Shown: positions 7,970 to 38,905 of the stretch, piece after piece | How the letters are laid out: every line of letters begins with the position of its first letter | Position numbering within the stretch: the stretch's first letter is position 1 | The notes under the pieces: model-generated | What the model was told of the DNA's origin: nothing | The model's database searches: none | What the model saw: only the letters and a program-made list of their open reading frames with translations | Program-made: the position numbers and the translations under genes | Assembly: GCA_018818205.1 (NCBI GenBank) | Contig: JAHISJ010000006.1 | Location: 1 to 41,816, forward strand | Source of the DNA: Patescibacteria group bacterium | Lineage (GTDB): Bacteria; Patescibacteriota; JABMPQ01; JAHIRA01 | Length of the DNA stretch: 41,816 nucleotides | Direction: 5' to 3'

Positions 7970-8362
7970 ATGTCAGAAAAGAAAAGAACAATTTTGGTTG
8001 TAGAGGACGACAAATTTCTCTTAAAGGTGTTAGATGACAAATTGAGTCGAGAAGGATACACAGTACTGGTGGCTCATGATGGAAATGAGGCAATGATGAA
8101 GTTTAAAAAAGGGCCACTTCCAGATCTTGTCCTTCTTGATTTAGTCATGCCTTTTAAGAGTGGTTTTGAGGTACTGGAAGAAATGCAAGCGAGCAAGAAG
8201 CTCAAGAAGATTCCCGTTATTGTCGCGTCAAACTTGGGACAAGACAGTGACGTAGAAAAGGCAATGGATCTTGGTGCGGTTGATTATCTCATTAAGTCAG
8301 ATTTCACTATCTCTGAAGTAATTGCTCGTATGGAAAAACAGCTCCCACCAAAGAAAAAATAA
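7970..8362 (+). CDS. single-domain response regulator heading the pilus operon
   Basis: The 130-residue protein is a lone receiver domain. Acidic pocket EDD is at 12-14, the phospho-acceptor Asp is at 57 in LLDLVMP, and the usual Thr/Ser switch position lies in IPVIVASNLGQ. The Lys motif region reads YLIKSDF. It lacks an output domain, like PilG/PilH or CheY. It is the first gene of the pilus operon, 23 nt before pilB, so it probably works on pilus motor or assembly proteins. The S-N-L-G-Q variant of the switch region is shared with the response regulator at 38540 in the chemosensory operon. The kinase is not adjacent; CheA at 35738 is the only candidate in the window. Confidence 0.9.
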   Translation: MSEKKRTILVVEDDKFLLKVLDDKLSREGYTVLVAHDGNEAMMKFKKGPLPDLVLLDLVMPFKSGFEVLEEMQASKKLKKIPVIVASNLGQDSDVEKAMDLGAVDYLIKSDFTISEVIARMEKQLPPKKK

Positions 8363-8385: not shown

Positions 8386-10077
8386 ATGAATATTCCAGAC
8401 AAAAAACTTGAAGAAATATTGGTAAAGCCAGGACACGTTGATGTCAAAGACTTTGAGAACGCAAAAGAGCGTGCAAAGAATGAAAAAACGTCGCTTTATA
8501 AAGCGTTGATTAATGGAGGATGTATTACTGACAATCAGCTTGGACAGCTTATTGCAATAGAGTTTGGGTTCAAATTTGCTGATCTTAAGAGAGAGGGTGT
8601 CGACAAGGATTATTCAGACATATTGCCGGAGCTTGTTGCTAAGACACAACACGTTATTGTTTTTGGGAAGGGAAAGAAGGGCCTAAAAGTCGCCATGGAT
8701 GATCCTTCAAGGCTTGATCTTATTAGTATGATTGAGAAGAAAACAGGAGAGCCGGTTGTTTCTTATTATGCGACAACGAGAGATATAGAATTTGCTCTAG
8801 ATGTGTATAGAAAAGAACTTAAGGAACAGTATGACGAACTGCTAAAACTAAGCATTGCAGAGGCGGAAGGCGCAGATGCGGAAGAAGCTCCCATTGTGAA
8901 AATAGTAGATGTTCTTTTTGAGTATGCATACAAGAATCAAGCATCTGATGTGCATATTGAGCCACGTAAAGAAAAAACAATAGTCAGATTTAGGATTGAT
9001 GGCATGATGGTACATGTTCTTGATTTACCGAGTGAAATTCATGAATCGGTGGTGACGCGGATAAAGATTTTGGCTAATTTACGAACGGATGAACATTTTT
9101 CGCCGCAAGACGGAAAAATAGTAAGACAAATAAACGATGATGAGATTGATATACGTGTATCTATTGTTCCTATTACTACGGGTGAAAAGGTAGTGATGCG
9201 ATTACTGGCTGAGCGGACACGTACGTATGCGCTTGAGTCTCTTGGTATGCAAGAGTCTGATTTTGAAAAGATTAGGCAAGCGATAAAAAAACCTTGGGGT
9301 ATGATTTTAGCTTCCGGCCCAACGGGGTGCGGTAAGACAACAACACTCTATTCCATCTTAAAGGTGTTAAATAGGCCGGAAGTCAATATTGCGACGATTG
9401 AAGATCCGGTAGAGTATGATCTCGAAGATGTAAATCAAATTCAAGTAAATCCCAATACTGATCTTACGTTTGCCAAAGGACTTAAATCAATTGTAAGACA
9501 AGACCCGGATATCATCATGGTAGGGGAGATCCGGGATCAAGAGACTGCAGGAATTGCCGTTAACTCTGCTATGACCGGACATCTTGTTCTCTCAACCATA
9601 CATACAAACGATGCTTCAACGGCATTTCCTCGTCTATTAGACATGGATATTGAGCCGTTTCTTATTGCATCTACAGTGAATGTGATTATCGCCCAGAGGC
9701 TGGTGAGAAAGATTTGTCAGCGGTGTAGAGCAAGCGTAGAACTTTCTGCAGTTGAAAAGGAGCAATTTAGAAAGCAGCTTTCAACTCGGGTTAAGAATCA
9801 ATTTAAATCCTACTTGGGCGGAAAGAAAATAGTAGCCTATAAAGGTGCCGGGTGTTCCGCATGTAACAATACCGGGTACATTGGACGCGTGGGTATTTTT
9901 GAAGTACTTGATGTTGATGATGATTTAAAACCCTTCATCATGAAACGTGCAAATGCCAATGAAATAGAAAAAGAAGCGATAAAAAAAGGAATGACAACCA
10001 TGATTGAGGATGGTATTACGAAGATTATTGAAGGCGTAACAACCATTGAAGAGGTGATACGAGTGATTCGAGAATAG
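8386..10077 (+). CDS. pilB: type IV pilus assembly ATPase PilB (GspE family)
   Basis: The 563-residue protein has an N-terminal GspE/PilB regulatory domain (about 1-150) followed by the PAS-like N2 and RecA-like ATPase domains. Walker A GPTGCGKTTT is near 310. The Asp box region IATIEDPVEY, Walker B region DPDIIMVGEIRD and His box HLVLSTIHTND are all present. A zinc-binding pair of CxxC motifs, CQRC and CSAC, lies near 444 and 491. It powers pilin polymerisation on the cytoplasmic side of the membrane, partnered with PilC. No retraction ATPase PilT is found in the window. Confidence 0.97.
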   Translation: MNIPDKKLEEILVKPGHVDVKDFENAKERAKNEKTSLYKALINGGCITDNQLGQLIAIEFGFKFADLKREGVDKDYSDILPELVAKTQHVIVFGKGKKGLKVAMDDPSRLDLISMIEKKTGEPVVSYYATTRDIEFALDVYRKELKEQYDELLKLSIAEAEGADAEEAPIVKIVDVLFEYAYKNQASDVHIEPRKEKTIVRFRIDGMMVHVLDLPSEIHESVVTRIKILANLRTDEHFSPQDGKIVRQINDDEIDIRVSIVPITTGEKVVMRLLAERTRTYALESLGMQESDFEKIRQAIKKPWGMILASGPTGCGKTTTLYSILKVLNRPEVNIATIEDPVEYDLEDVNQIQVNPNTDLTFAKGLKSIVRQDPDIIMVGEIRDQETAGIAVNSAMTGHLVLSTIHTNDASTAFPRLLDMDIEPFLIASTVNVIIAQRLVRKICQRCRASVELSAVEKEQFRKQLSTRVKNQFKSYLGGKKIVAYKGAGCSACNNTGYIGRVGIFEVLDVDDDLKPFIMKRANANEIEKEAIKKGMTTMIEDGITKIIEGVTTIEEVIRVIRE

Positions 10078-10111: not shown

Positions 10112-11188
10112 ATGGCAGACTCAAAGAAGAGAAAAAACATATCTCTCGAGTATGTACGGATTACTGACAAGGTTTTGTTTACTAAAAATCTTGCACTTAT
10201 GCTTAAGGCAGGACTTACTATCAACGAAGCGCTTAACGTTTCTGTTGACCAAGCAAATGGGTCGTTTAAAAAAGCGCTTGAAGATATTAATGATCGTGTT
10301 ACGGCGGGAACTGCTTTTTCTGAAGGACTAAGAAGACATCCGCGGCTCTTCTCAACGCTCTTTGTTAGTATTGTACGTGTTGGAGAGAAGAGTGGTACGC
10401 TTGTTGAGAGTTTAAACCAACTTACAAACCAGCTTGAAAAAGAGAGAACCCTCAAGTCAAAAATTACTCAGGCTATGATGTATCCGGTGATTGTGTTGAT
10501 TACTTTGGTGCTTGTTGGTGCCGGCATTTCTATCTTTGTTCTTCCAAAACTTACTTCGCTTTTTAACGTTTTTCAGGGGGAAATCCCTTTTTCAACACAG
10601 GTGCTTTTATGGATTGTTGATGTGATGTCAAAATGGGGTATTTATATTATTGGCGGAGGAATTCTTCTAGTCGTTTTCTTGATTTTAATTGTTAAAACAA
10701 AACCAATTAGACCAATCTGGCATGCGCTATTACTCCGAATTCCCGTGATTGGTAAAATCGCGCGTAACTTGAACTTAGCACGCACAACACGAAACTTAGG
10801 AACACTGCTTCAAAGTGGTCTTCCTATTGTTGAGAGTTTAGACATTGTCTCAAGGAGTATTCCTAACGAGTCGTACAAAAGAAAGATACACGCCATTAGT
10901 GAGGAAGTGCAAACAGGAACGGAGATTCATACATCAATGGAAGGTGCTGAGCATATTTTTCCAAAAATAGCCTCTCGTATGATTGCGGTTGGTGAACGCT
11001 CGGGTAGGCTTGATGAAGTGCTACTCTACTTGGCAGATTTTTATGAGAATGAAGTCGACAAGGCATCTCAAAATTTGTCAACAACTCTTGAGCCAATACT
11101 TCTGGTTATTGTTGGAATTGCCGTTGGATTTGTCGCGCTTGCCATTATTACACCAATTTATCAATTGACTGCTACAATAGCCGGGTAG
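10112..11188 (+). CDS. pilC: type IV pilus inner membrane platform protein PilC
   Basis: The 358-residue protein has two tandem GspF/PilC domains (about 20-140 and 220-340). Three membrane helices lie near 122-150, 175-198 and 325-352. The repeated family motifs are visible: ALMLKAGLTINEAL and GTLLQSGLPIVESLD, and VGEKSGTLVESL and VGERSGRLDEVL. It forms the membrane platform turned by PilB. The length is somewhat short compared with proteobacterial PilC but normal for Gram-positive and CPR versions. It sits 34 nt after pilB and 10 nt before the first pilin gene. Confidence 0.97.
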   Translation: MADSKKRKNISLEYVRITDKVLFTKNLALMLKAGLTINEALNVSVDQANGSFKKALEDINDRVTAGTAFSEGLRRHPRLFSTLFVSIVRVGEKSGTLVESLNQLTNQLEKERTLKSKITQAMMYPVIVLITLVLVGAGISIFVLPKLTSLFNVFQGEIPFSTQVLLWIVDVMSKWGIYIIGGGILLVVFLILIVKTKPIRPIWHALLLRIPVIGKIARNLNLARTTRNLGTLLQSGLPIVESLDIVSRSIPNESYKRKIHAISEEVQTGTEIHTSMEGAEHIFPKIASRMIAVGERSGRLDEVLLYLADFYENEVDKASQNLSTTLEPILLVIVGIAVGFVALAIITPIYQLTATIAG

Positions 11189-11198
11189 TGATACTTAT

Positions 11199-11657
11199 AT
11201 GCAAAGAAAGACACAATGTGGATTTACTCTGATGGAGTTGTTGCTCGTAATAGCCATTATAGCCATAATGGCTGCTATGGCGATTCCCGTACTTGGCACA
11301 TTCATTAACCGTACGCAGATTGATGCAACAACGGATGATGTTGTCAGCGCACTGCGATACGCCCAGCAGAAAGCCGCAGCTTCTCAGGAAGATTCTCGGT
11401 ATGGAGTATATTTTGATGATCCAAATAACGCATTTTATATTTTTAGAGGTGACGCATTTGGTGTAAACCCTTCTGAAAATATAAAGTATACGTACCCTAA
11501 TGCGATTACTATTTCTCAGTCTTTTGTAGGCAATGAAGTCAATTTTGAAAAATTGCATGGAACAACTGCTGACACCGGAACGATAACCATTACTAATACG
11601 AGTGGTGATACTAAGCAGGTCACCATTAATTCTGCGGGGACTATAGAGAAAAATTAA
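11199..11657 (+). CDS. GspH-like type IV prepilin
   Basis: The 152-residue protein has a type III prepilin signal with cleavage expected at CG|FTLMELL, where Glu is at +5 and the next 20 residues are hydrophobic. The remainder has a GspH/FimT-like layout: a helix around residue 45 (TTDDVVSALRYAQQKA) and then a beta-rich C-terminus. GspH-type subunits are minor pilins that start the fibre. Processing needs a prepilin peptidase (PilD), which is not encoded in the window. Confidence 0.88.
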   Translation: MQRKTQCGFTLMELLLVIAIIAIMAAMAIPVLGTFINRTQIDATTDDVVSALRYAQQKAAASQEDSRYGVYFDDPNNAFYIFRGDAFGVNPSENIKYTYPNAITISQSFVGNEVNFEKLHGTTADTGTITITNTSGDTKQVTINSAGTIEKN

Positions 11658-11680
11658 TCGAGCACCAGAGTTTTTAACTG

Positions 11681-14440
11681 ATGTATATGGAAAAAAAACA
11701 AAAAGGGCAAACTCTTGTAGAGATAGTACTCGCAGTTGGTATTTTTGTTACGCTTGCTGGTGGTATTACAGTGCTTGTTTTGGGATCATTGCTTTCCGAA
11801 AGACAGGGAGGCGAGTTGACTCAAGCTACGTCTTATATGCAAGAAGGGTCAGAAGCAGTACGGAGTATTGGTGAAGAGGCGTGGAATAAACTTGCGTATA
11901 TGGATGATGGCGCAACGCATGGTCTTGATAACGGTTCAGGTGTGTGGGATTTCTCAGGTACGAGTAATACAGATGGAAAATATACTCGAACCATTGATGT
12001 AGACTCAGTTACGCGTGATGGCGGTGGTGACATTAACCCGGGCACAAACGATCTAGAAACGAAAGAAATTACCGTAACTACCGATTGGGATTTTGCACCG
12101 GGGAGACCAAAGCAAACGGTCTCGGTGTATAATCTTACCAATTGGAACAGGGGGCTATGGACAGAAACTACCGATGCTGATTTTAATGATGGAACATTCT
12201 CAAATACGGTAGCAAATAGTGATACTCTTATCCTGTCGGGAAGTGGAGGAACAACCGACTCAAATAGCTGGGATTTTAGCACGAGCGGTGAGTATACATT
12301 TGATCCGCTAAAAATAGAAGTGACTGGAGGTCAGGCGAGTTTGGTTGGATCGGGAGGAACAGTAAGTGGTTCAACTACAGACCCCGGGTTTGATACTGGA
12401 GCACCTTGGACAAGCGGTACGTGGGATCAAGGGGGAAGTGATTATGTGTTCAACAATAGGTACCCAACCTATGGGAATCCCACGTGGTGGGTCTACAGTT
12501 ATTTGCGGGGAAGAAATAATGCTGAACTGGGAGGATACTGGCAGCAGGCATTTACAACCACAGTTGACGATCCTGATGTATCGGTTACCTTGGATTACCA
12601 ACCATGGACTCGTACATTGCAAGCAAATGATCATGGATATTTCTATGCTTTTGTCGATAGTTCACCCGGTGCTCCCGCAAGTCCCGGTAACGCAGTATGG
12701 TCACATGAATTTGTTGCCGGTGATCCGGTACAAACATGGGTAACGGGTAACACTTTCACCGATAGTGGGAATGTGACTACAGCTGGTACGTATTACTTAA
12801 AGGTTGCTTTGTGGCTTGATAATAGAAATGCGGGAGGAAATCCTTATCGGTATTTACTTGGCGGATATGATAATGTTCAGCTTGATTGGACCAAAACAAC
12901 AGTGCCAACGTATCCATCTGATAATCCACCGATTAACCCAACTGGCTCATGGGACCCCGACAATAAAGTGGTGACGTGGACTTCATTCACTGAAACGGCC
13001 ACAAAAAATGGCGGTGAAATCTATTATCAGTTATCCTCAGACGGGGGAACGACGTGGCAGTACTGGAATGGCTCGGCATGGGTTACAGTGGTTGGTGCAA
13101 CTGATTATAATACCGCTTCCCAAGTAAATAGTCAGATTACCTCTTTTGATACTTCTACCGGGATTATTATGTTTAAGGCGTTCTTGTCATCAGATGGGAC
13201 ATACGATGTTTTATTGGACAATATAGATATTACTGCAGAGATTGAAACGATTACTATGGAAGTTGGGGAAGTGACTACCGATGAAACGTGGGCAACAGTT
13301 AGTACGGCAAATACGTATACGTCTCCGGTGGTCACAGCGTTATATGAAGAACAAACCGGTTCCAATGCAGCGTATTCAGTTTCTACTCGGGTAAGAAATG
13401 CCGGGTCAAACAGTTTTCAAATCAGAATCGAAGATCCATCTGGAGCAGATCTGGGGGATAGTCGAGTTAGATATATTGTGATGGAAGAAGGTGCATGGGA
13501 TATGGGTTCGACCAAAGTTGAGGCGCATAAAGAATCCATAGCAACTGTTGCACGTAAAAATAATTGGATTGGAGATAATAAGGGGTACGATCAAACGTAT
13601 GCCAGCAACCCCCTCGTGTTGCATCAAGTTATGAGTGATAATGATACACGGTGGATAGAGTCCTGGGTTTCAAGTCAGGGGAACAAAAATGACCCTCCTA
13701 ACACTTCAGGATTTCAGATTGCTATGAATGCAGCGGAAGTGGCTGCTTCGTATGCGCACAATCCTGAAATACTTGGTTGGATTGTTGTGCAGGCAGGTCA
13801 AGATGATTCTATTGATGGTAACAATTTTAGGACAAGGATAACAGGCGATACTGTCAGGGGGCATGCCAACGGTTGCTATAATCAAAATTATGGCACGACC
13901 TTTATCTCTCCGTATGTTGTTGCAGATCAGGAGACAATGGATGGAGGAGATGGAGGGTGGCTCGTTGAGTGTGCGTTATCGGGAACGGCTGTGGGCGTTC
14001 ATGTCGAGGAAGATCAAGAGGGTGACCCGGACAGAAGTCATACAACAGAAATTGCAGCATATGTTGTTTTTGAAGACTCTTTTTCTGTAAGTGGTAAGGG
14101 TGGTTATTCACCATCTGGCACGTATGAGTCTTCTGACTTTGGGACGGCCTCAAATTTTAATCTCATAAAATGGACTGAGACAGTGCCACCAAGTACCGAT
14201 TTACGTGTTCAAATTAAAACCGCCCCAGATGCAAGCGGTTCACCCGGTGCGTGGTCACCGACGTGGTGTGGTCCAGAAGGTGAGGATGGAGATGAAACAG
14301 ATTACTTCACGAATCCTGCAGGAGAGCTTATTCACCCCGACCACATTGGTGATAATTGGATTAAGTATAAATTGTCACTTACCGGACCAGGGAGCGATAC
14401 GCCAATACTTGCTGATATTACGGTGAATTATAAGCCTTGA
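11681..14440 (+). CDS. giant pilin-like surface protein (919 residues)
   Basis: The N-terminus is a prepilin signal, KG|QTLVEIVLAVGIF with Glu at +5 and a hydrophobic helix to about 35. It continues as a helix (SYMQEGSEAVRSIGEEAW) like a normal pilin. Then come about 850 residues rich in Thr, Ser, Gly, Asp and Trp that look like consecutive beta domains, with repeated DGGTTWQYWNG-like and WDFSGT-like elements. The C-terminal module ends in TPILADITVNYKP. Cys are few. By analogy with tip adhesins that carry a pilin stalk, it is probably a pilus-tip adhesin, but the ligand is unknown. Start could also be the second ATG two codons later. It is about five times longer than a usual pilin. Confidence 0.85.
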   Translation: MYMEKKQKGQTLVEIVLAVGIFVTLAGGITVLVLGSLLSERQGGELTQATSYMQEGSEAVRSIGEEAWNKLAYMDDGATHGLDNGSGVWDFSGTSNTDGKYTRTIDVDSVTRDGGGDINPGTNDLETKEITVTTDWDFAPGRPKQTVSVYNLTNWNRGLWTETTDADFNDGTFSNTVANSDTLILSGSGGTTDSNSWDFSTSGEYTFDPLKIEVTGGQASLVGSGGTVSGSTTDPGFDTGAPWTSGTWDQGGSDYVFNNRYPTYGNPTWWVYSYLRGRNNAELGGYWQQAFTTTVDDPDVSVTLDYQPWTRTLQANDHGYFYAFVDSSPGAPASPGNAVWSHEFVAGDPVQTWVTGNTFTDSGNVTTAGTYYLKVALWLDNRNAGGNPYRYLLGGYDNVQLDWTKTTVPTYPSDNPPINPTGSWDPDNKVVTWTSFTETATKNGGEIYYQLSSDGGTTWQYWNGSAWVTVVGATDYNTASQVNSQITSFDTSTGIIMFKAFLSSDGTYDVLLDNIDITAEIETITMEVGEVTTDETWATVSTANTYTSPVVTALYEEQTGSNAAYSVSTRVRNAGSNSFQIRIEDPSGADLGDSRVRYIVMEEGAWDMGSTKVEAHKESIATVARKNNWIGDNKGYDQTYASNPLVLHQVMSDNDTRWIESWVSSQGNKNDPPNTSGFQIAMNAAEVAASYAHNPEILGWIVVQAGQDDSIDGNNFRTRITGDTVRGHANGCYNQNYGTTFISPYVVADQETMDGGDGGWLVECALSGTAVGVHVEEDQEGDPDRSHTTEIAAYVVFEDSFSVSGKGGYSPSGTYESSDFGTASNFNLIKWTETVPPSTDLRVQIKTAPDASGSPGAWSPTWCGPEGEDGDETDYFTNPAGELIHPDHIGDNWIKYKLSLTGPGSDTPILADITVNYKP

Positions 14441-14460
14441 TTGTGATAATAAGGATTGAT

Positions 14461-14940
14461 ATGGCACGTAAACAAAGAAGCGATTCTGGATTCACACTTA
14501 TAGAGCTTCTTGTTGTTCTAGTCATTTTAGTAGTACTTTTTGGTGTTTTCTTTGTTATTTTTTCTCCGGAAAAGAGAGTCTCTGAGGCCAGAAACGCACA
14601 GCGTTTTGAGGAAATTAGGTCAATAGCGGGTGCATTTAGTACGTACGAAGTAGATCATAGTGGTGCAACGCCGGAAGGTGTTGATACGACACTACGTATG
14701 CTTGGAACAAGCCAAGAAGGCTGCGATACGGAATGTGGAGTTTTAGAGGAGAAGACAGAAAACGCGTGCTTAAATCTTGAAGCTCCTTTTGTTGGAAACT
14801 ATTTTGGACGTATTCCCTATGATCCACTTCATGGATCTCGTGAGAAAACATACTATGCAGTCAAAAAAACAGAGGCAGACCAGGTATTTGTGGTTGCATG
14901 TAGGCCGGAACTTGGTGAACATATGGCTGTTGAGAGGTGA
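14461..14940 (+). CDS. type IV prepilin
   Basis: The 159-residue protein has the class III signal SG|FTLIELLVVL with Glu at +5. The globular part has four Cys (GCDTEC and single Cys near 100 and 150), probably forming disulfide loops. The IPYDPLHG motif resembles the proline-containing loop of major-pilin-like subunits in Gram-positive and CPR bacteria. The frame is open from a TTG at 14437, but ATG 14461 has an AAGGA element about 8 nt upstream and gives a normal short basic leader. Confidence 0.88.
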   Translation: MARKQRSDSGFTLIELLVVLVILVVLFGVFFVIFSPEKRVSEARNAQRFEEIRSIAGAFSTYEVDHSGATPEGVDTTLRMLGTSQEGCDTECGVLEEKTENACLNLEAPFVGNYFGRIPYDPLHGSREKTYYAVKKTEADQVFVVACRPELGEHMAVER

Positions 14941-14952
14941 CGTGTGGATTTT

Positions 14953-14981
14953 TTGAAAAACTTTTCTATTGATTCTAATAT
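14953..14981 (+). promoter_or_regulatory. possible internal promoter in the pilus operon
   Basis: TTGAAA (14953-14958), a 17-bp spacer and TAATAT (14976-14981), in the 73-nt gap that is the longest inside the operon. It would give extra transcription of the PilW-like, PilX-like, pilM and major pilin genes. Confidence 0.45.
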
Positions 14982-15013
14982 TGGTACAATACGTACACAG
15001 GTGAACTAAAAAT

Positions 15014-15559
15014 ATGAAAAAACAGAAAAAAAGAGCGCAGATACAGAACGAGTCAGGGTTTACACTCATAGAACTGCTTTTGTCGATTGCAATTATCGCA
15101 GTCATTATTACCGCGATAACGTATTTCAGTATTGATACTTTTAAGGCAAAGGCAAAATCGAGCGTTGTCCTTGAGACGCAACAAAATGCCCGGCATGCAT
15201 TTCAGCAAATGACATATTATATTAGGAATTCTGAAGATGGACTCAATGTAGGGGGGTCGTCGTTTGCTCCTACTGATCCGGGAACGCTTCATTTGAACAT
15301 GGGTGCGGGAGCGGGGGATGATGTTGTATTTGATGTAAATTCTGGAAGACTCAGAATAACGACTGGGGGAGGTACGCCAGAATATCTTACGACTGACGCA
15401 GTGACGGTGACTAGTTTGCTTTTTGAAAATAATTCGGCTTCCGGTACACCGGGGAATATAACCATGTCCATGTCACTTGAATACGATAATCCATCCGGAG
15501 CGCAAGAGTTTAATTATTCGTATGATCTTCAAACGAGTACATCGTTTAGAGTTGAGTAA
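15014..15559 (+). CDS. PilW/GspJ-like minor prepilin
   Basis: The 181-residue protein has the signal ESG|FTLIELLLS with Glu at +5 after a basic 15-residue leader. The QQNARHAFQQMTYYIRNS helix and following beta-rich region are typical of PilW/GspJ-type minor pilins (predicted by pattern, not by search). It carries no Cys. It probably sits near the pilus tip with the GspH-like and PilX-like subunits. Confidence 0.85.
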   Translation: MKKQKKRAQIQNESGFTLIELLLSIAIIAVIITAITYFSIDTFKAKAKSSVVLETQQNARHAFQQMTYYIRNSEDGLNVGGSSFAPTDPGTLHLNMGAGAGDDVVFDVNSGRLRITTGGGTPEYLTTDAVTVTSLLFENNSASGTPGNITMSMSLEYDNPSGAQEFNYSYDLQTSTSFRVE

Positions 15560-15563
15560 AAAT

Positions 15564-15968
15564 ATGAAGAATATACAAAAACAACGTGGTCAAATCGCAT
15601 TAATATCAGTTCTCATTATTGCAGCAGCAGCGCTTATTGTTGCACTAGCTATGAGTTCTGGTGGAATCAATGAAAGCATAATAAGTTTTGACGATGAACA
15701 GTCTGAACGTGCGTTTCAAATTGCAGACGCGTGTGTTGACGAGGGGCTCCTTCGATTACAAAGAGTACATGCTGGTGAGGAGGTAAGTTATTCAGGGGGG
15801 ACGTTGAATTTTGGGACTGATTCATGTACAATTACCGTGACGGTGTTAGGAAGTAATAGAGTTGTTGATGTTGAGTCAACGGTTAATGCTAAGATACATA
15901 GAAAAATACAAGCCATAGCACAGTGGACACCCACTTACGAACTTATCTCGTGGCAAGAACAAGAATAA
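15564..15968 (+). CDS. PilX/GspK-like minor pilin without Glu5
   Basis: The 134-residue protein starts at ATG 15564, 4 nt after the previous stop. The frame is open upstream, but that part overlaps the pilin gene. After a basic leader comes RG|QIALISVLIIAAAALIVAL, so the cleavage site Gly and hydrophobic helix are there but the usual Glu at +5 is replaced by Ile. This is the hallmark of PilX/GspK-type subunits, which cap the fibre. The FDDEQSERAFQIADACVDEGL helix is typical of PilX proteins. Confidence 0.82.
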   Translation: MKNIQKQRGQIALISVLIIAAAALIVALAMSSGGINESIISFDDEQSERAFQIADACVDEGLLRLQRVHAGEEVSYSGGTLNFGTDSCTITVTVLGSNRVVDVESTVNAKIHRKIQAIAQWTPTYELISWQEQE

Positions 15969-15969
15969 T

Positions 15970-17031
15970 ATGTCACTTTTCAAAAAAAAATCATTTGGTC
16001 TAGAGATATCAGATAATGCAGTAAAAGTAGCTGAGCTTTCCGGAAAGCCTATGGCTGCTCGTCTTGATGCATATGGCGCTTCTCAACTTGACATAGGAGT
16101 GGTTGATAATGGAGGTATTTTTGATAAGAAAAAGTTAGCGGAAGGTATTGCTCAGGCGATAGAGAAAGCATCACCTGGGGCTATTGATACCGAGGATTTT
16201 ATTTTTGCATTGCCGGAATCAAAGGTGTTTATTCAGTTTTTTGAGATTCCAAATAATGTAGATTCTGTTTCCGATGCAATCCGTGTTAAAGCATCTGAAG
16301 TTGTTCCGATAGATTTTGCAAATCTCGTAGATGATTATATGCCGGTTCTCGAAGGGGAGGAGGCAAATGAGTATTTATACGTTGCAGCGCAAAAAGATGT
16401 ACTTACTTCCTTTTTTGAGGTATTTGAGCAGGTAGGCATAGAGCCTTATGCTGTTGAGTTTGAATCTGCAGCCATGGTGAGAGCACTTTTTGATACGTGC
16501 CCCGAAAATCATGCATCGTTACTTGTGGATATTGGTGCGCGGACAACCATTGTGAGCATCTATGATTACTGTAGTATTGTTTTTTCAAAGAATATTCAAA
16601 TTGCTGGAAACACTTTTACTAAGCACCTTTCTGAGGGTCTTAAGGTTTCAATGAAAGACGCTGAACAGCTAAAAATAAAATCGGGACTTGACCCCAAGAC
16701 AAAAAAAGGAAAAAGTGCTACACTGTTAAAGTCGCCAATTGATGAGATTATTGCAGAAATTTCTCAGGTTCTTTCATTTTATAAAGGTAAGACTGATCGT
16801 CCGATCAAAGAGATGATCCTATGTGGCGGGTCTTCAAGACTCAAGCAATTACCAGAGTATATGCATGATACACTTGGTATACCGGTCAAAGTAGGGTTAC
16901 CACTCAGTAAGATAAAGACAAAAAAAGGGAGCAAAAAAGCAATTCTTTCTCCAACAGTTATTGGACTAGCCTTGCGGTCACTTGAGAAAAAACCCGATGA
17001 AGCGGGTATAAATTTGTTAGCTAATTTGTAA
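15970..17031 (+). CDS. pilM: type IV pilus assembly protein PilM
   Basis: The 353-residue protein has the actin-like PilM fold: FGLEISDNAVKVAEL (phosphate-1 region) near 9-23, the VDIGARTTIVSIYD (phosphate-2 region) near 186-200, and the LCGGSSRLKQL (adenosine region) near 278-288. It binds ATP in the cytoplasm and normally holds the N-terminus of PilN, linking the motor to the membrane. In this operon it is followed by a pilin gene and not by pilN and pilO, so its membrane partner is unknown. It starts 1 nt after the previous stop. Confidence 0.95.
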   Translation: MSLFKKKSFGLEISDNAVKVAELSGKPMAARLDAYGASQLDIGVVDNGGIFDKKKLAEGIAQAIEKASPGAIDTEDFIFALPESKVFIQFFEIPNNVDSVSDAIRVKASEVVPIDFANLVDDYMPVLEGEEANEYLYVAAQKDVLTSFFEVFEQVGIEPYAVEFESAAMVRALFDTCPENHASLLVDIGARTTIVSIYDYCSIVFSKNIQIAGNTFTKHLSEGLKVSMKDAEQLKIKSGLDPKTKKGKSATLLKSPIDEIIAEISQVLSFYKGKTDRPIKEMILCGGSSRLKQLPEYMHDTLGIPVKVGLPLSKIKTKKGSKKAILSPTVIGLALRSLEKKPDEAGINLLANL

Positions 17032-17054: not shown

Positions 17055-17546
17055 ATGGGAAATCTCAAACAAAAAGGTTTTACATTGATTGAGCTTCTGA
17101 TTGTTATCGCAATTCTTGCGATTATCGGAGCAGCAGTGTTTGTAGCACTTAATCCAGCAAAAAGGCTGGGTGAAGCAAACGATGCAGCACGGTGGAGTGA
17201 CGTGAATCAAATTTTGAGCGCAATCCATCAGTATACAATAGATAATCAAGGTGATATTCCAAATGATGGAACTGGTGATTGGGATAATAACAACTACAAT
17301 GTTCTTGGTACCGGCGCTGTAACTACGTGCGATACTTGTGCTGCTGTAACAGGAACCATAGACGGCGATTGTCTTACGTTTACTGATCTTACCGGCACCT
17401 ATCTTGGGTCAATTCCAGAAGATCCACGATACGGTTCTGAAGCTGATACACAATACTATGTTCAGAGAAATACAAGCAATATTGTGACGGTTGGTGCATG
17501 TCAGACATCATCATATGCTCCGGGACCAATCAAAGTGGTCAGATAA
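17055..17546 (+). CDS. type IV prepilin, major pilin candidate
   Basis: The 163-residue protein has a very short basic leader and the signal KG|FTLIELLIVIAILAIIGAAV with Glu at +5. The FVALNPAKRLGEANDAARWSDVNQI region after the helix is typical of the major pilins of Gram-positive and CPR bacteria. The Cys pairs CDTC, DC and AC may form disulfides. The GSIPEDPRYG loop is shared with the 14461 pilin. As the last gene before a strong terminator it is likely to be the most abundant subunit, which is inference. Confidence 0.9.
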   Translation: MGNLKQKGFTLIELLIVIAILAIIGAAVFVALNPAKRLGEANDAARWSDVNQILSAIHQYTIDNQGDIPNDGTGDWDNNNYNVLGTGAVTTCDTCAAVTGTIDGDCLTFTDLTGTYLGSIPEDPRYGSEADTQYYVQRNTSNIVTVGACQTSSYAPGPIKVVR

Positions 17547-31979: not shown

Positions 31980-33248
31980 ATGGTGATAGCGATATTACAT
32001 TACGGGCAGACGGTACTAGTATTGTTTGCATTTGGCATTGTGTACTATCTTCTTGTCAAAACCCATATTATGAATAGATTGGCTAAGCTGTTTGGTATAC
32101 GGTCGTTTAAGCGCACAGTGAGTTTTTCTGTTGTTGTACAAGTTTTTCTTTCTTTGTTCGCGTGTGCACTCATTTATCTATTTTTTGGTTTTGACTTGGT
32201 TAATGTGATTTTGTGTTTTCTTGGATTTATTATACTTGCGCTTCTTTCTGCATCTGGCGTGTCTGACATTATTTTGGAGCCGATTCGAAGAGACGTAAAA
32301 AAAATAAGTAATGCTGCGGAAGCATTGCGTCGATTCTCTGAACTATCACTTGAGGCAGCACAGCGCAATACAACAGTCACGGAACAGATGGCTGCAGGAG
32401 CGCTTCAACAATCAAAGCAGTCTGATGAGGTTTCACAAGAGATCGCAGTACTTGCATCAACTATTCAACAGATATCATCCTCTGCTCAGGAAGTCTCAAA
32501 TGGTGCAACAGAGACTTCTCAGATGATTCAAAATGCTGGGGAAAGTAGCGAAAAATCTCAAAAGAGCTTAGATCAAATCAAAGGTACGGTTGATAATTCA
32601 TCTGTGATGATTAAAAAGATGTCTGAGCGTTCAGAAGAAATAGGTGAGATTGTAGAAACAATCACTGATATTGCAGAACAAACTAACCTCCTTGCATTAA
32701 ACGCTGCGATTGAGGCTGCTCGCGCTGGAGAAGCGGGGAGAGGATTTGCAGTTGTTGCTGATGAAGTTGGAAAGCTTGCCGAGGGTTCTGGAAAGGCCGC
32801 GCGAGAGATCAAAGATAGAATTCACGAGATGACACAGCAAATAAACGAAACGGTTGAAGCTGTAGAGACCGGTAAGATTTCTGCTGACAAGAGCTCAAAA
32901 GTTATTAGCGAGACATTGCTTACTTTACAAAGTGTAGCTGCAGCAATTCAGCAGGTTTCGGTGAAGATTCAAGATGTGTCAGCAGGTGTACAGCAACAAT
33001 CTACTTCTGTACAAGAAGTAGCAAAGACAATAGACGGCATGGCTGCTGTTGCGGATCAAAATACCTCTGGAGCAGAACAGCTTTCTGCTGAGACACAAGA
33101 GCGTAGTGCTGACTATGAACAGATTAGTTCGACTGCTAGAGAGTTAAATACATTATCTGACGAGCTTTATAAAGTTGTGGACGGTAAGGAAAAACAAGAG
33201 AACATAGTAAAAAGTGAACCGCAAAAGGATACTTCTCATAAAAAATAG
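31980..33248 (+). CDS. methyl-accepting chemotaxis protein without a sensor domain
   Basis: The 422-residue protein has three membrane helices in its first 95 residues (about 8-27, 47-69 and 72-94) with only very short loops outside. A helical connector ([11 protein letters not shown]) leads into a cytoplasmic signalling coiled coil. The conserved tip is [20 protein letters not shown] followed by [16 protein letters not shown] (about 235-270), which binds CheA and CheW. No Cache, PAS or four-helix ligand domain and no recognisable HAMP is present, and there is no C-terminal tether pentapeptide for CheR/CheB. It therefore probably takes its input from another protein; the H-NOX protein at the end of this operon is the obvious candidate. 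Confidence 0.92.
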
Positions 33249-33299: not shown

Positions 33300-33845
33300 A
33301 TGGATTCTTTAAATGAAACATCTAAAGATGAAGATCAAGATACCAAAGCAGACGTGATTCAGCTTGTTGTTTTTGAACTTGACTCAGAGGAATATGCGGT
33401 AGAAATAACAGACATACGTGAGATTGTACGAATTCCAGAAATTACCCCAGTTCCCGATGCACCAGCGTTTATTAAAGGTATATTTAATTTACGAGGACAA
33501 ATTGTAGTTGTTTTGGACTTAGAAAAAAAATTTGGTCTAAAACGTGAACATACAAAACTTTTTGAGCATGTTGTAATTTTAGAAAGTGGTAAGAGTGTAT
33601 ATGGTGTTTTGGTTGATACGGTCCTTGAGGTGCTTCGCGTTTCTAAAAAGTCAATAAAGAATACTCCTGACCTCGTGACAACAAAGATTCATACGGACTT
33701 CATTAAAGGTATAGTTGTTATTGATAAAAAGAAAAAGAAAGAAAGCAGAATTATTGTACTACTTGATCTACTTAAGGTTCTTAATGAAAAGGAACTTTTG
33801 AAGGTTGAAAAGAGTGTAGCAAAAGAAAATAAGAGAGAAAAATGA
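33300..33845 (+). CDS. cheW: chemotaxis coupling protein CheW
   Basis: The 181-residue protein has one CheW domain (about 18-165): LVVFELDSEEYAVEITDIRE, then IPEITPVPDAPAFIKGIFNL and RGQIVVVLDL, the classic double-barrel signature. The N-terminus is acidic and the C-terminus strongly basic, both longer than in a minimal CheW. It links the MCP to CheA in the array. Its last four bases overlap the start of the next gene (ATGA). Confidence 0.95.
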   Translation: MDSLNETSKDEDQDTKADVIQLVVFELDSEEYAVEITDIREIVRIPEITPVPDAPAFIKGIFNLRGQIVVVLDLEKKFGLKREHTKLFEHVVILESGKSVYGVLVDTVLEVLRVSKKSIKNTPDLVTTKIHTDFIKGIVVIDKKKKKESRIIVLLDLLKVLNEKELLKVEKSVAKENKREK

Positions 33846-34261
33846 ATGAAATAGACAACGCATATAAGGTGTATTTAGAAGAGGGAAATCTTATTGTTGT
33901 CGATTTTTTAATTGATGTTCCTGAAGAAAATGGTGAAGACGTTGCTGTTGCAGAAGCGATAGGGAGAGAGGTTAATACTATCTTGCGTAGAAATCCTACA
34001 AAGCAATTCAAAGTGCTTGCGAGTACACTAGCTCTTGGTAAAGACACCGGCAATGTTTCAAAAGAAGCCCGGGGAGTGTATGTTGCTATTATCTCAAATG
34101 ATCAAATCGAAAAAACCGCATTTGTTTCTGCAAGTTCATTTTTAACTATTGTTGCTACATTTGTTTTTCAAGCTGCTGGGAGAAGTAATAAGGTCAAATT
34201 TTTTAAGGAAAAAGAAAAAGCTCTTGGATGGTTACATGAAGGAGATGATGAAGATAACTAA
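33842..34261 (+). CDS. STAS/SpoIIAA-like protein in the che operon
   Basis: The 139-residue protein has a beta-alpha pattern like SpoIIAA/STAS-related proteins: YLEEGNLIVVDFLIDV, then an acidic helix (ENGEDVAVAEAIGREVN), a core strand KVLASTLALGK, SKEARGVYVAIISND and a final FKEKEKALGWLHEG helix that matches the ending of SpoIIAA-like lipid/STAS domains. The family call is by pattern only. It overlaps cheW by four bases, so it is translationally coupled and very likely part of the signalling machinery. It is an unusual member of a chemotaxis operon. Confidence 0.6.
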   Translation: MNEIDNAYKVYLEEGNLIVVDFLIDVPEENGEDVAVAEAIGREVNTILRRNPTKQFKVLASTLALGKDTGNVSKEARGVYVAIISNDQIEKTAFVSASSFLTIVATFVFQAAGRSNKVKFFKEKEKALGWLHEGDDEDN

Positions 34262-34279: not shown

Positions 34280-34645
34280 ATGCAAAAAGATATAAAAGTA
34301 CTTCTTGCTGACGATTCAGCGTTTATGAGAAAAATACTAAGAGATATTCTTGAACATGAGGGGTATTCTCATTTTATTGAATGTGCAGATGGTGAAGAGT
34401 GTATTGAAAAAAGTAACTCAGAAAATCCTGATTTGATTTTTTTAGATATTGTTATGCCCAAGATTGATGGTATTGAAGTACTAAAAAGAGTTGGGAGAAA
34501 TTATAATGTTATTGTAGTCAGTGCAATAGGTCAAGAAAAAACAAAAGAAATGGCTAAAGATTTAGGAGCAAAAGGGTACATTACTAAACCGTTTGATTGG
34601 AAGCAGGTTTCTTCCGAGATAAAGAAACTATATCCTGAATCGTGA
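34280..34645 (+). CDS. cheY: response regulator CheY
   Basis: The 121-residue receiver has the acidic pair DD at 11-12, phospho-acceptor Asp 56 in FLDIVMP, switch Ser in VVSAIGQ and Lys in GYITKPF. The sequence, with DDSAFMRKILRDIL at its start, is close to CheY from non-enteric bacteria. It is the canonical output of CheA, and CheC at 37417 would dephosphorylate it. There are no flagellar motor genes in the window, so its target may be the type IV pilus machinery. Confidence 0.93.
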   Translation: MQKDIKVLLADDSAFMRKILRDILEHEGYSHFIECADGEECIEKSNSENPDLIFLDIVMPKIDGIEVLKRVGRNYNVIVVSAIGQEKTKEMAKDLGAKGYITKPFDWKQVSSEIKKLYPES

Positions 34646-34666: not shown

Positions 34667-35731
34667 ATGCCCACAAATGAACAAAAAATTCGAGTACTAA
34701 TTGTTGATGACTCATTTCTTATGCGTCGTCTTTTAACTGACATCTTGAATTCGGACAAAGAGATTACTGTTGTTGGTAGTGCAAAAAATGGTGAGGATGC
34801 CATAAAAAAGATACGATTGTTTAAGCCCAATGTAGTCACAATGGACTATCATTTACCTGATATGTCTGGAGCAGACATTACTCGTAAAATACTTTCAAAA
34901 AAATCACTACTGCCGGTAGTTATTATGGTTTCTGCTTATACAAAAAAGGATGCAAAGGAAACCTTAGAGTCATTAGACGCAGGTGCTGTAGATTACATTG
35001 AGAAGCCTTCCGGAGAAGTATCGCTTGATTTAGATTCAGTCAAGGAGAGTATTATTAAAAAAGTTAAGGAACTTTCCAAGGTAGGCATGAATGGTCCTGT
35101 GAGGCCTACGGTGCAAAAAAAGAAAAAGAAAAAGAGACCAAAAACAATTTATTCGATTGTGATAGGTGCATCAACAGGAGGTCCGGTAATGCTTGAAGAT
35201 ACCATTTCTCATTTATCAATAAATATAGATCTACCTATATTTATTGTGCAACACATGTCAAAGCATTTTACTGCTGAGCTTGCCAAGAGACTCAATTCTA
35301 AAACTGATGTACCTGTTTTAGAAATTTCGGATGGGATGCATATTCAACCTGGAACAGTGTATGTAATGCCTGGGGGGTATCATTTATTATCTTTCAGAAA
35401 CACAAGAGACGGAAAAAAAAGCGAGCTGATTGCCAGAATAGAAAAAAGAACATCAAAAAATGGTAATTGTCCATCAATAGATGAGGTCATGTGTGCGGTT
35501 GCAAAACAATATGGTTCTCGAGTGCTTGCTGTAGTTTTAAGTGGTATGGGGAAGGATAGTGTTGAGGGTGTGACAGCAATTAAAAAAGAGGGAGGCTACT
35601 GTATCACACAAGATCCAAGTACCGCACTTATTGCGTCTATGCCTAATGCAATTATAGAGAAGGGACTTGCAGATGAGATACTTTCTCCAAAAGAGATAAC
35701 GCAAGCAATAAAAGAAATTGCTCGGAAGTAA
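34667..35731 (+). CDS. cheB: chemotaxis methylesterase/deamidase CheB
   Basis: The 354-residue protein has a receiver domain (about 7-125, phospho-acceptor Asp 60 in TMDYHLP, EKPSG at its end), a basic KKKKKKRPK linker near 150 and a methylesterase domain. The catalytic Ser 169 is in IGASTGGP, the catalytic His is in FIVQHMSKHF, and the Asp region is LSGMGKDSVEG. It removes methyl groups from, or deamidates, MCP signalling helices. The partner methyltransferase CheR is absent from the window. Confidence 0.96.
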   Translation: MPTNEQKIRVLIVDDSFLMRRLLTDILNSDKEITVVGSAKNGEDAIKKIRLFKPNVVTMDYHLPDMSGADITRKILSKKSLLPVVIMVSAYTKKDAKETLESLDAGAVDYIEKPSGEVSLDLDSVKESIIKKVKELSKVGMNGPVRPTVQKKKKKKRPKTIYSIVIGASTGGPVMLEDTISHLSINIDLPIFIVQHMSKHFTAELAKRLNSKTDVPVLEISDGMHIQPGTVYVMPGGYHLLSFRNTRDGKKSELIARIEKRTSKNGNCPSIDEVMCAVAKQYGSRVLAVVLSGMGKDSVEGVTAIKKEGGYCITQDPSTALIASMPNAIIEKGLADEILSPKEITQAIKEIARK

Positions 35732-35737
35732 AAGAAT

Positions 35738-37408
35738 ATGGATTTATCAAATTATACAGACGTATTTATAACTGAGGAGAAGGAATGCTTACGTGGGATA
35801 AGTGATGGCTTGTTAGTGCTCGAGAAGAAGAAAGATGAAGAAACACTCAATGAGCTCATGCGCCTTTCTCATACCATCAAGGGCGGATCCTCAATGATGG
35901 GGTACACAAAATTGGCCTTTTTGGCGCATGTTATGGAAGATGTATTTGATTATGCTCGTCATGGGCTTCTCGAAATAACTTCTGAAACTATAGATGAACT
36001 TTTTTCTGCCGTGGATGCAATGCAAAAGTCGCTTGATTCCGTAAAGAAAAAGGGAACAGAAATGGATCTTACTTCAGTGTCTAAAACTATTAAGGAGATT
36101 ACCGGTGTTCGGACAGTTGGGACGGGCAAATCAAGACGGACAAAAAAGGGTATGCCAAAACATGCAAAAAAAAGCCCAGAAAAGAAATCAAAGAAAAAGG
36201 TGTTGAAAGAAAGTAAAGAAGCAAAAGATTCACTATCTAAACTCTCGGAAGAAATAATCCAGTATTCCTATATCAAGGTACCCGTAAAGAGGCTAGATGC
36301 AATGGTGGATTTAGTAGAAGGATTGCTCATAGATAAGATGCGTTTGGAAAATTTACCTGACCAAGGGCCTGAATTAAAAAAAAATATTGCACATCTAAGT
36401 AGGCAAATTTCTGATATACAATATGAAATTATGCAAGCACGACTTGTTCCGATTTCTCAAGTGTTTGATTATTTTCCTCGAATGGTACGAGATCTTGCTC
36501 GGGAGAAAAAAAAGAAAATCAATCTTACCATTTTAGGTGGTGCTATGGAGCTTGACAGAACGGTTCTTGATAAGCTTGCTTTACCACTTATTCACTTAAT
36601 CAGAAATGCAGTTGACCACGGCATTGATAAGAAAGGAACAATCAAAATAATTGCTATGCGAGAGAGGAACAATACCACCGTCGCTGTAGAAAATGATGGA
36701 AGATCGATTGATCTTGAAAAAGTGAAGGAATCTGCACTAAAGAGAGGGATTATATCTGAAAAAAAACTTTCTACATTCTCAGATGAGCAAGTGATGAACT
36801 TGATTTTTAATCCAAATTTATCGACCAAGGAAAAAGTTACAAAAACATCAGGGAGAGGAGTAGGCATGAGCGTAGTGAAAAACTTTGTAGAGCAAGTCGG
36901 GGGGAAGATAGTTATACGGTCGCCACTTAACGGAGGAGGTACTCGTGTGACACTTGAATTGCCGCTAACGCTTGCGATAATCAATGCATTGCTGGTTACG
37001 GTATCTAATGAGACTTTTGCAGTTCCTTTTACGTCAATTGAGCGTTCTGTTTTGGTATCTTCTCAGGACATTAAAAGTCTTGGTGATCAAGATGTGGCGG
37101 TTGTTGATGGTGCGGAGATTCCTCTTTTTTGGACTGAGAAGGTTTTTAATTTAGAGAGAAAACATGTTTCTTCCCGTACGGATAGAAAAAATTTGGTAAT
37201 TATTGTTAATGATGGAGGTGAACGAGCAGGAATAATCGTTGATAGTCTGGTAGGTGGAAATGAAATTATTGTTAAGCCCCTTGCGGCGATACTCAGAAAA
37301 GTCGGTTATTTTTCTGGTTCAACAATTCTGGGTGATGGCAAGACGGTACTCATTATTGATGTGCCAGGTTTGCTTGAAGATAAAACAAAGCTTTTAAGAG
37401 TAACATAA
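35738..37408 (+). CDS. cheA: chemotaxis histidine kinase CheA
   Basis: The 556-residue protein has an Hpt (P1) domain with the phosphorylated His 45 in LSHTIKGGSSMMGY, a basic linker (about 125-165) with no recognisable P2 domain, a P3 dimerisation helix pair (about 175-240), a P4 kinase domain (about 240-410) and a P5 CheW-like domain (about 412-550). In P4 the N box HLIRNAVDHGI and G2 box SGRGVGMSVVK are intact. The G1 box reads ENDGRSID, with Asn 319 and Ser 323 where most CheA have Asp and Gly. Without P2, CheY must dock directly on P1 or P4. Genes on both sides are within 10 nt. Confidence 0.96.
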   Translation: MDLSNYTDVFITEEKECLRGISDGLLVLEKKKDEETLNELMRLSHTIKGGSSMMGYTKLAFLAHVMEDVFDYARHGLLEITSETIDELFSAVDAMQKSLDSVKKKGTEMDLTSVSKTIKEITGVRTVGTGKSRRTKKGMPKHAKKSPEKKSKKKVLKESKEAKDSLSKLSEEIIQYSYIKVPVKRLDAMVDLVEGLLIDKMRLENLPDQGPELKKNIAHLSRQISDIQYEIMQARLVPISQVFDYFPRMVRDLAREKKKKINLTILGGAMELDRTVLDKLALPLIHLIRNAVDHGIDKKGTIKIIAMRERNNTTVAVENDGRSIDLEKVKESALKRGIISEKKLSTFSDEQVMNLIFNPNLSTKEKVTKTSGRGVGMSVVKNFVEQVGGKIVIRSPLNGGGTRVTLELPLTLAIINALLVTVSNETFAVPFTSIERSVLVSSQDIKSLGDQDVAVVDGAEIPLFWTEKVFNLERKHVSSRTDRKNLVIIVNDGGERAGIIVDSLVGGNEIIVKPLAAILRKVGYFSGSTILGDGKTVLIIDVPGLLEDKTKLLRVT

Positions 37409-37416
37409 GTAAAAAT

Positions 37417-38034
37417 ATGGCTTATTTAAGTGAAGAAGAAAAGGATCAACTTATTGAGGTAATTAATATCGGGGTTGGAAACGCATCAACAGCACTCTCT
37501 CAAATGGTAAATGAGCAAGTTACGCTTTCCGTTCCTGAAATGTATGCCGGTCCGGTAGAAAATGCATTGGATTTTATTGGTGAATCAGAGCAGGTTCAAA
37601 CGGCGGTACTGTTTACAGTTTCTGGCGATATTGATGGTATGATGTTTCTTATTTTTTCATCTGAAGATGCGCTGAAATTGGTGCAATTGGTATCAAAGCA
37701 GTATAATCAAGAAAAGAGTATTACCAAAGGTTCAAACGAGTCTGCACTAAAAGAAATAGGTAACGTGCTTCTTGGTCCAGCACTTGGGGCACTTTCACAT
37801 TTTCTTGATGCACATATTGTTCAATCTGTTCCTGAACTTGCAAGCGATATGCTTGACTCGGTTATTGATGAAGCATTATCTGAAGTGCTTAAATCTTCAA
37901 AAGCGGCAATGATTTTTAAAACAGAATTCTCAGTAAAAAGTAAGGATATTTCTGGCCATTTTTTCTTCCTTTTTGAGCCAAAGGCGACCGATGAGATTTT
38001 GAAGATGATTAAAGAAAAGTACACTACGAGCTAG
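37417..38034 (+). CDS. cheC: CheY-P phosphatase CheC
   Basis: The 205-residue protein carries two copies of the CheC/CheX/FliY phosphatase motif. The first is DQLIEVINIGVGNAS (D-x3-E-x2-N pattern) near residues 10-24. The second is SALKEIGNVLLGPAL near 109-123. Two active sites indicate CheC and not CheX. It would dephosphorylate CheY-P and bind CheD, encoded 9 nt downstream, giving the adaptation loop known from Bacillus and Thermotoga. Confidence 0.94.
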   Translation: MAYLSEEEKDQLIEVINIGVGNASTALSQMVNEQVTLSVPEMYAGPVENALDFIGESEQVQTAVLFTVSGDIDGMMFLIFSSEDALKLVQLVSKQYNQEKSITKGSNESALKEIGNVLLGPALGALSHFLDAHIVQSVPELASDMLDSVIDEALSEVLKSSKAAMIFKTEFSVKSKDISGHFFFLFEPKATDEILKMIKEKYTTS

Positions 38035-38043
38035 AAAAAGTAT

Positions 38044-38535
38044 ATGAGCAATACAGTAAAAATTGGTATTGGAGAACTTGCGGTTGGAAAAGGGAGGGAA
38101 TGTATTAAGACAAGTGGAGTTGGGTCGTGTGTAGTTATTGCTTTATATGATCCTGATGTCAAGGTTGGTGGCTTGGCACATGCAATGCTTCCGACAAACA
38201 AAATAAGTGGAGACAAAGAGACTAAAAACAAGAGTGTACATTTAGAAAAGACGGCAAAATATGTTGATGAAGCTATACGAGAGCTCATTTTGACAGTAGA
38301 AAAAAAGGGAGGCAAGAGAGAACGACTGAGCGCTAAACTTGTTGGCGGTGCTCAAATGACCCCTCTTTTTGGAGGATTAAAAGAGAGTATTGGAGTTGAA
38401 AACGTACGTGAAGCGAGAAAACAACTTAAAGCGTATGCAATTCCACTTGTTAATGAGGATACCGGAGGGTCAATTGGTAAGCTTATAGAGTTTTATTCAG
38501 ACAGTGGACTTTTGAAGATAACATCAATGATATAA
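38044..38535 (+). CDS. cheD: receptor deamidase CheD
   Basis: The 163-residue protein has the CheD signature: TSGVGSCVVIALYD with catalytic Cys near 29, GGLAHAMLP with catalytic His near 45, and the KLVGGAQMTPLF region near 98-109. It deamidates specific Gln residues in MCPs and is modulated by CheC. Together with CheB it could set receptor activity even without CheR. It starts 9 nt after cheC and ends 4 nt before the next gene. Confidence 0.95.
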   Translation: MSNTVKIGIGELAVGKGRECIKTSGVGSCVVIALYDPDVKVGGLAHAMLPTNKISGDKETKNKSVHLEKTAKYVDEAIRELILTVEKKGGKRERLSAKLVGGAQMTPLFGGLKESIGVENVREARKQLKAYAIPLVNEDTGGSIGKLIEFYSDSGLLKITSMI

Positions 38536-38539
38536 TCAT

Positions 38540-38905
38540 ATGAAGGTACTTATAATAGACGATGATACATTTGTTCGAACCGTTTATAATTCACTTTTGA
38601 CCGAAGAGGGATATGAAGTGTTGCAAGCTGCTGATGGTGAAGAAGGGTTTAAGGAGTTAAGGAAGAGTAAACCTGATATTGTGCTTCTTGATATGATTCT
38701 TCCCAAGATGACCGGTTTTGATGTATTGGAGAAAAAGAGAAAAAATGCGTCGATTAAATCTATTCCAGTGATCGTGATTTCTGATTTAGGCCAAAAGAAT
38801 GATATTGATCGTGCAAAAAAACTAGGTGCACGTATGTATTTACCAAAAGGGGAGTATTCGCCCAATGAAATTGTGACAGAGATTAATAAGTTAACCAAAA
38901 AATAA
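38540..38905 (+). CDS. second single-domain response regulator of the che operon
   Basis: The 121-residue receiver has the acidic cluster IIDDD at 5-9, phospho-acceptor Asp 51 in LLDMILP, IPVIVISDLGQ in the switch region and YLPKGEYSPNEIV at the Lys position. It differs from the CheY at 34280 (VVSAIGQ, YITKPF) and is closer in these motifs to the receiver at 7970 (ASNLGQ, YLIKSDFTISEVI), which opens the pilus operon. It may be a separate output or a phosphate sink. Its neighbours cheD and the H-NOX gene are 4 nt and 1 nt away. Confidence 0.93.
   Translation: MKVLIIDDDTFVRTVYNSLLTEEGYEVLQAADGEEGFKELRKSKPDIVLLDMILPKMTGFDVLEKKRKNASIKSIPVIVISDLGQKNDIDRAKKLGARMYLPKGEYSPNEIVTEINKLTKK

Follow-up and report, generated by a model that had tools for sequence, protein, structure and literature searches.

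Single-domain receivers beside pilB and in the che operon of a Patescibacteria genome, and a candidate kinase-receiver-pilB cassette

The pilus and che operons of the window

The window, which is the whole stretch of 41,816 nucleotides analysed here, carries a pilus operon headed by a single-domain receiver (RR1) and a chemotaxis (che) operon with a second receiver (RR2) which is not a CheY. The features of the pilus operon are as follows.

7970..8362, + strand: RR1, single-domain receiver at the head of the operon, 130 aa (PF00072, E 4.7e-22)
8386..10077, + strand: PilB1, pilus assembly ATPase with MshEN N-terminal domain (T2SSE 2.1e-126, MshEN 7.9e-7)
10112..11188, + strand: PilC1, platform protein (from its position and its resemblance to the PilC proteins of relatives and of the second locus)
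11199..15968, + strand: five pseudopilin-type open reading frames, most with prepilin-like N-termini (from translations)
15970..17031, + strand: PilM-like assembly protein (TIGR01175, 138.5 bits, above cut-off)
17055..17546, + strand: pilin-like protein (from translation)

The stop of RR1 at 8362 and the start of pilB at 8386 are 24 bases apart on the same strand, with pilC from 10112, so that RR1 lies directly upstream of pilB-pilC, as in the candidate cassette discussed below. PilC1-like genes also follow pilB in G005, G049, G088, G229 and other genomes. No kinase gene adjoins RR1 in the window, where the upstream gene (7058-7783) looks like a methyltransferase, and the kinase of RR1 must thus act in trans. 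Against TIGR02538, PilB1 scored 524 bits, under the cut-off of 676, and by eye its MshEN segment is without the usual R-L-G motif start. GGDEF domains, which bear on c-di-GMP as an alternative regulator of PilB, were found in 39 of 96 genomes, the window's included, and are absent in G001, the only other genome of the same family.

The window's genome (1.41 Mb, 97% complete) gave eight receiver matches. In the six of them other than CheY and CheB, the switch Ser/Thr is followed by N or D and the Lys by a residue other than Pro. A second pilus locus is found on contig C21 (L001:4731-8012), with a receiver reading TPVILLTNLGQ between pilB2 and pilT, and a third pilB on contig C5 has no adjacent receiver.

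The features of the che operon and of the gene which follows it are listed next.

31980..33248, + strand: chemoreceptor (MCP) with a typical MCP signalling sequence, 53% to its counterpart in the che operon of G001
33300..33845, + strand: CheW (PF01584 9.9e-36)
33842..34261, + strand: SpoIIAA/DUF7793-like protein (PF25056 5.8e-7)
34280..34645, + strand: canonical CheY, 121 aa, with S-A-I-G-Q and K-P-F (PF00072 1.4e-26)
34667..35731, + strand: CheB (PF01339 7.7e-57)
35738..37408, + strand: CheA with one Hpt, dimerisation, HATPase_c and CheW domains (Pfam)
37417..38034, + strand: CheC-type phosphatase (PF04509 7.6e-12, PF13690 1.5e-11)
38044..38535, + strand: CheD (PF03975 2.3e-22)
38540..38905, + strand: RR2, second non-CheY receiver, 121 aa (PF00072, E 1.1e-24)
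38907..39434, + strand: H-NOX haem gas sensor (PF07700 3.2e-44), starting one base past the RR2 stop

The gene order is thus MCP-CheW-SpoIIAA-like-CheY-CheB-CheA-CheC-CheD-RR2, followed by the H-NOX gene. The components MCP, CheW, CheY, CheB, CheA, CheC and CheD are also those of CheA-CheY chemotaxis of the Bacillus and Thermotoga type, from which the window differs in that RR2 and the H-NOX gene come after them and a flagellum is not expected. The SpoIIAA/DUF7793-like gene occupies the same place between CheW and CheY in G001, with 35% identity. The haem His region and the Y-K-S-E-R motif of the H-NOX protein appear intact, and among 380 genomes of the phylum convincing matches were limited to the window's genome and G001, where the gene lies at another location.

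The orthologue of RR2 in G001 (52% identity) is likewise the last che gene, just before gyrB, and reads SNLKQ and K-D-Q-F, which shows that the L-G-Q of RR2 is not fixed. The che operons of G406, G436 and G036 also have receivers other than CheY after CheD, and RR2 is thus one case of a more widespread pattern; in G406 and G436 there are three of them in tandem (L206:10760-11890 and L209:8162-9364).

Receiver motif and kinship within the phylum

RR1, RR2 and CheY are all intact and full-length, with all catalytic residues present. The PF00072 scores of RR1 and RR2 were 78.7 and 87.2 bits in comparison to the Pfam cut-off of 30.2, and the receiver domain alone was matched by Pfam in both, with no PATAN domain. 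From the sequence, RR1 has the acidic pair D13/D14, the phospho-acceptor D57, S87 and K109, with the switch S87-N88-L89-G90-Q91, Y106 and the Lys loop K109-S-D-F. RR2 has the acidic residues D7-D9, the phospho-acceptor D51, S81 and K103, with the switch S81-D82-L83-G84-Q85, Y100 and the Lys loop K103-G-E-Y. The preliminary description of this DNA had pointed to the two receivers and to a switch segment common to them, and the open reading frames and the PF00072 matches confirm both their places and the segment (IPVIVASNLGQ in RR1 and IPVIVISDLGQ in RR2, with P-V-I-x-x-S-[ND]-L-G-Q in common), while the Lys regions read Y-L-I-K-S-D-F and Y-L-P-K-G-E-Y, respectively. It was also right in setting the pair apart from the canonical CheY with its S-A-I-G-Q and K-P-F, since neither receiver has K-P or an Ala/Ser at position T+1 as the CheY of the che operon does. 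In the 159-row tree, the 17 CheY rows formed one clade with a support of 99, without RR1 and RR2; a placement of RR2 beside CheY gave p 0.45 in the AU test and is not excluded by that test alone.

The switch segment had further been called unusual, which is true in comparison to bacterial receivers at large, where Ala or Gly stands at T+1 in 74% (PMC12632262), but not within the phylum, where among 88 receivers outside the named groups N was found at T+1 in 68 and a residue other than Pro at K+1 in 87. A DNA pattern for P-V-x-x-x-[ST][ND]-L-G-Q gave 37 matches in 28 of 96 genomes and none for the reversed control, and [ST][ND]LGQ was present in 33 of 100 sampled single-domain receivers of the phylum, the sample being made up of receivers other than CheY and CheB. 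The proposal that the motif marks a dedicated subfamily of CheA-pilus receivers was not supported, because 20 of these 33 adjoin neither pilB nor pilT, and several motif-bearing receivers adjoin ordinary histidine kinases or no kinase. An association with the pilus genes was seen all the same, with pilB or pilT adjoined by 13 of 33 receivers with the motif vs 4 of the 67 that lack it (p 7e-5 in a Fisher test, which serves as a guide only because the rows are not independent). Co-occurrence of the motif with pilB counted by genome was uninformative, since T2SSE-family ATPases are present in 95 of 96 genomes.

A close kinship of RR1 and RR2 did not emerge. The identity of RR1 was 40% to RR2 (121 columns), 38% to CheY and 46% to the C21 receiver, with a median of 38% to the receiver set, and 53-55% to the G005 receiver which stands upstream of pilB in the same gene order. 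RR1 and RR2 were not paired in any of the three receiver trees, which are based on about 125 columns and disagree on the deep forks, and joining them gave p 0.29 in the AU test, so that the pairing is neither supported nor rejected.

Receivers and kinases beside pilB

In 17 families of the phylum, receivers of the RR1/RR2 type are linked to pilB or pilT, with two recurring layouts and a third, in which CheA takes part, described further below. In the first layout (pilB-RR-pilT), the receiver stands between the two ATPase genes, as on C21 of the window's genome (G000) and in G001, G002, G016, G026, G037, G054, G085 and G086, with the variants pilM-RR-pilT in G003 and RR-pilT, up to the contig end, in G071. 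In the second layout (RR-pilB-pilC), the receiver comes first, as in the window and in G003, G005, G007, G008, G048, G049, G051 and G088, and as RR-pilB in G047. Numerous pilB genes in the phylum are without a receiver beside them, and the contig of G001 ends before the 5' part of its pilB1, so that the upstream gene is not visible. The long PilB proteins examined included no natural fusion of a receiver to PilB and have extended N-terminal regions instead; those of 770-850 aa in L241, L242, L243 and L244 carry seemingly duplicated MshEN-like segments in long N-terminal regions, and their loci have the order pilB-pilT-pilC without a receiver.

The receiver and pilB genes overlap or touch in G051, G088 and G008, as is expected of partners which are made together. 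With no output domain and no proven partner, RR1 might act on pilus expression or placement through some other protein and not on PilB itself. We regard this as improbable, as receivers of its type are tightly coupled to pilB specifically, with start/stop overlap in several genomes.

The kinase varies. A histidine kinase precedes the receiver of the second layout in G003, G007, G047 and G049. Profile searches of the nine other genomes with this layout gave no CheA dimerisation domain and no CheW match, the CheW search (matches in 17 of 380 phylum genomes) having been added because two CheA proteins, a split one in G001 and a divergent one in G036, had escaped the CheA search. A different arrangement was found in G229, one of the 17 genomes with a CheW match, where MCP, CheW, CheA, a receiver (PVIILSNLGQ), pilB and pilC follow one another on one strand; Hpt, HATPase_c and CheW domains were identified in the kinase, and its two upstream neighbours score as CheW and MCP. 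In its family (f111), 17 of 21 genomes have CheW matches, with CheA-RR-pilB in 16 and CheA-RR running to the contig end in one, and the same MCP-CheW-CheA-RR-pilB-pilC arrangement is present in G400 and G404 of family f153. No CheY, CheB, CheC or CheD lies alongside in these operons (L151, L187-L205), which leaves the receiver as the only obvious output of CheA, and a path from CheA through the receiver to PilB would be the natural reading of the gene content. The operons of these two families are the best evidence for a link from CheA to the pilus, though they lie outside the window's family. Two other clusters were also seen, namely in G107, where a histidine kinase and pilB-pilC come after the che cluster, and in G259, where CheA, pilC, pilB and a receiver lie together, the receiver being divergent from pilB. 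The view of the preliminary description, in which CheA signals through dedicated receivers to the pilus motor, is thus supported in kind, given the operon in two other families, and not in detail, as the motif does not define a subfamily and neither CheA nor CheW was found in the nine RR-pilB genomes searched.

The Lys loop, which is part of the face of CheY that contacts targets, follows these arrangements, with K-[SAT]-D in 8 of 9 receivers of RR-pilB, K-A-H in 9-10 of 11 of pilB-RR-pilT and K-D in 9 of 10 of CheA-RR-pilB. The K-S-D-F of RR1 is of the form seen with histidine kinases or orphan receivers in the second layout and not the K-D of CheA-linked receivers, which is a mild argument against CheA as its kinase; the CheA-linked receivers are about equally similar to RR1 and to RR2.

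These comparisons bear on two further readings. In the first of them, RR2 rather than RR1 would connect CheA to the pilus by reaching PilB in trans, with RR1 serving a separate histidine kinase and the two inputs converging on PilB. The retention of RR2 in G001 at the end of the che genes and ahead of gyrB, best matches (after the orthologue) that include CheA-RR-pilB receivers at 44-48%, the K-D of the G001 orthologue and a position beside CheA-RR-pilB receivers in the 159-row tree (SH-aLRT 83) are in its favour; that grouping was however lost in the careful 70-row tree, the AU test was neutral (p 0.46), the window's own RR2 has K-G instead of K-D, and no pil gene adjoins it, so that we consider this reading rather unlikely. 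It seems similarly doubtful that RR2 is a phosphate sink or a partner of CheC/CheD in a chemotaxis unrelated to pili, with RR1 under an unlinked histidine kinase only and the motif a common style of the phylum. This would agree with the phylum-wide occurrence of the motif style, with the extra receivers after CheD in other che operons and with the presence of RR-pilB in genomes where neither CheA nor CheW was matched, but the CheA-RR-pilB operon of relatives argues against a purely chemotactic role, and the che system needs some other output if there is no flagellar target. To our knowledge, no such target is expected in CPR bacteria.

A candidate cassette and its meaning

Based on the gene neighbourhoods, we regard it as somewhat probable that RR1 is a phospho-switch of PilB1 within a phylum-wide kinase-receiver-pilB-pilC cassette in which the kinase is exchangeable. 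The receiver would be made together with the motor, and its phosphorylation would alter the activity or placement of PilB, while the kinase would be an ordinary histidine kinase, a compact MCP-CheW-CheA array or, as in the window's organism, an unlinked kinase. There, the phosphate of RR1 would most likely come from CheA, the gene of which is at a distance of 27 kb, or from an unlinked histidine kinase. Transfer from CheA to RR1 is thus possible, and the operons of the two other families make a steering of pili by chemotaxis plausible. RR2 could be a further receiver of CheA, which either reaches the pilus as well or drains phosphate from CheA, like PilH and PixH against PilG and PixG. Phosphotransfer, the binding of PilB and the link to CheA in the window's organism are what we infer from this arrangement.

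Chemosensory kinases are already known to control type IV pili, and control through two receivers exists in PilG/PilH and PixG/PixH (PMC12632253, PMC12288463). In the Pil-Chp system of Pseudomonas aeruginosa (PilJ, PilI/ChpC, ChpA, PilG, PilH; PMC12632253), a CheA-family kinase and bare CheY-like receivers, as are present here, control the type IV pilus extension ATPase, and PilG controls the placement of PilB (PMC12632253). ChpA is however large with several phosphotransfer domains, whereas the window's CheA has one Hpt, which sets the window apart from Pil-Chp, and the Pil-Chp receivers are coded with the chp genes while here a receiver is coded with pilB. The cyanobacterial Tax/Pix phototaxis systems (PixG, PixH; PMC12288463) also combine a chemotaxis-like kinase with two receivers, and the response regulator PixG contacts PilB1 and PilC (PMC12288463); that PilB-binding regulator carries a PATAN domain, in contrast to the bare receivers RR1 and RR2. 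Closest are the phylum's own kinase-receiver-pilB operons, which RR1-pilB-pilC matches in position and sequence, except that the window is without an adjacent kinase. In the literature searched, which covers few of the subscription journals, we found no description of these kinase-receiver-pilB operons and no conserved operon of CheA, a bare receiver and PilB in the phylum; chemotaxis and pilus genes were noted without detail in Peribacteria (PMC4736985), and one CPR genome paper reported pili and no chemotaxis (PMC7143001).

We tentatively suggest from the gene content that the pili of Patescibacteria may be under chemosensory control by a minimal pathway encoded in an operon, where a single bare receiver, made together with the motor, would form the whole link between kinase and PilB. 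A histidine kinase and an MCP-CheW-CheA array would be interchangeable as the kinase, and the chemosensory operon of the window's genome would have gained an H-NOX gas sensor. The action of CheA-type kinases on type IV pili is still debated in the model systems, in which further proteins and second messengers come into play. The MCP-CheW-CheA-receiver-PilB-PilC operon, kept in two families, offers a small protein set for direct testing of the steps from CheA through the receiver to PilB, and also has a bearing on the way in which tiny and probably host-dependent bacteria find their hosts or hold on to them.
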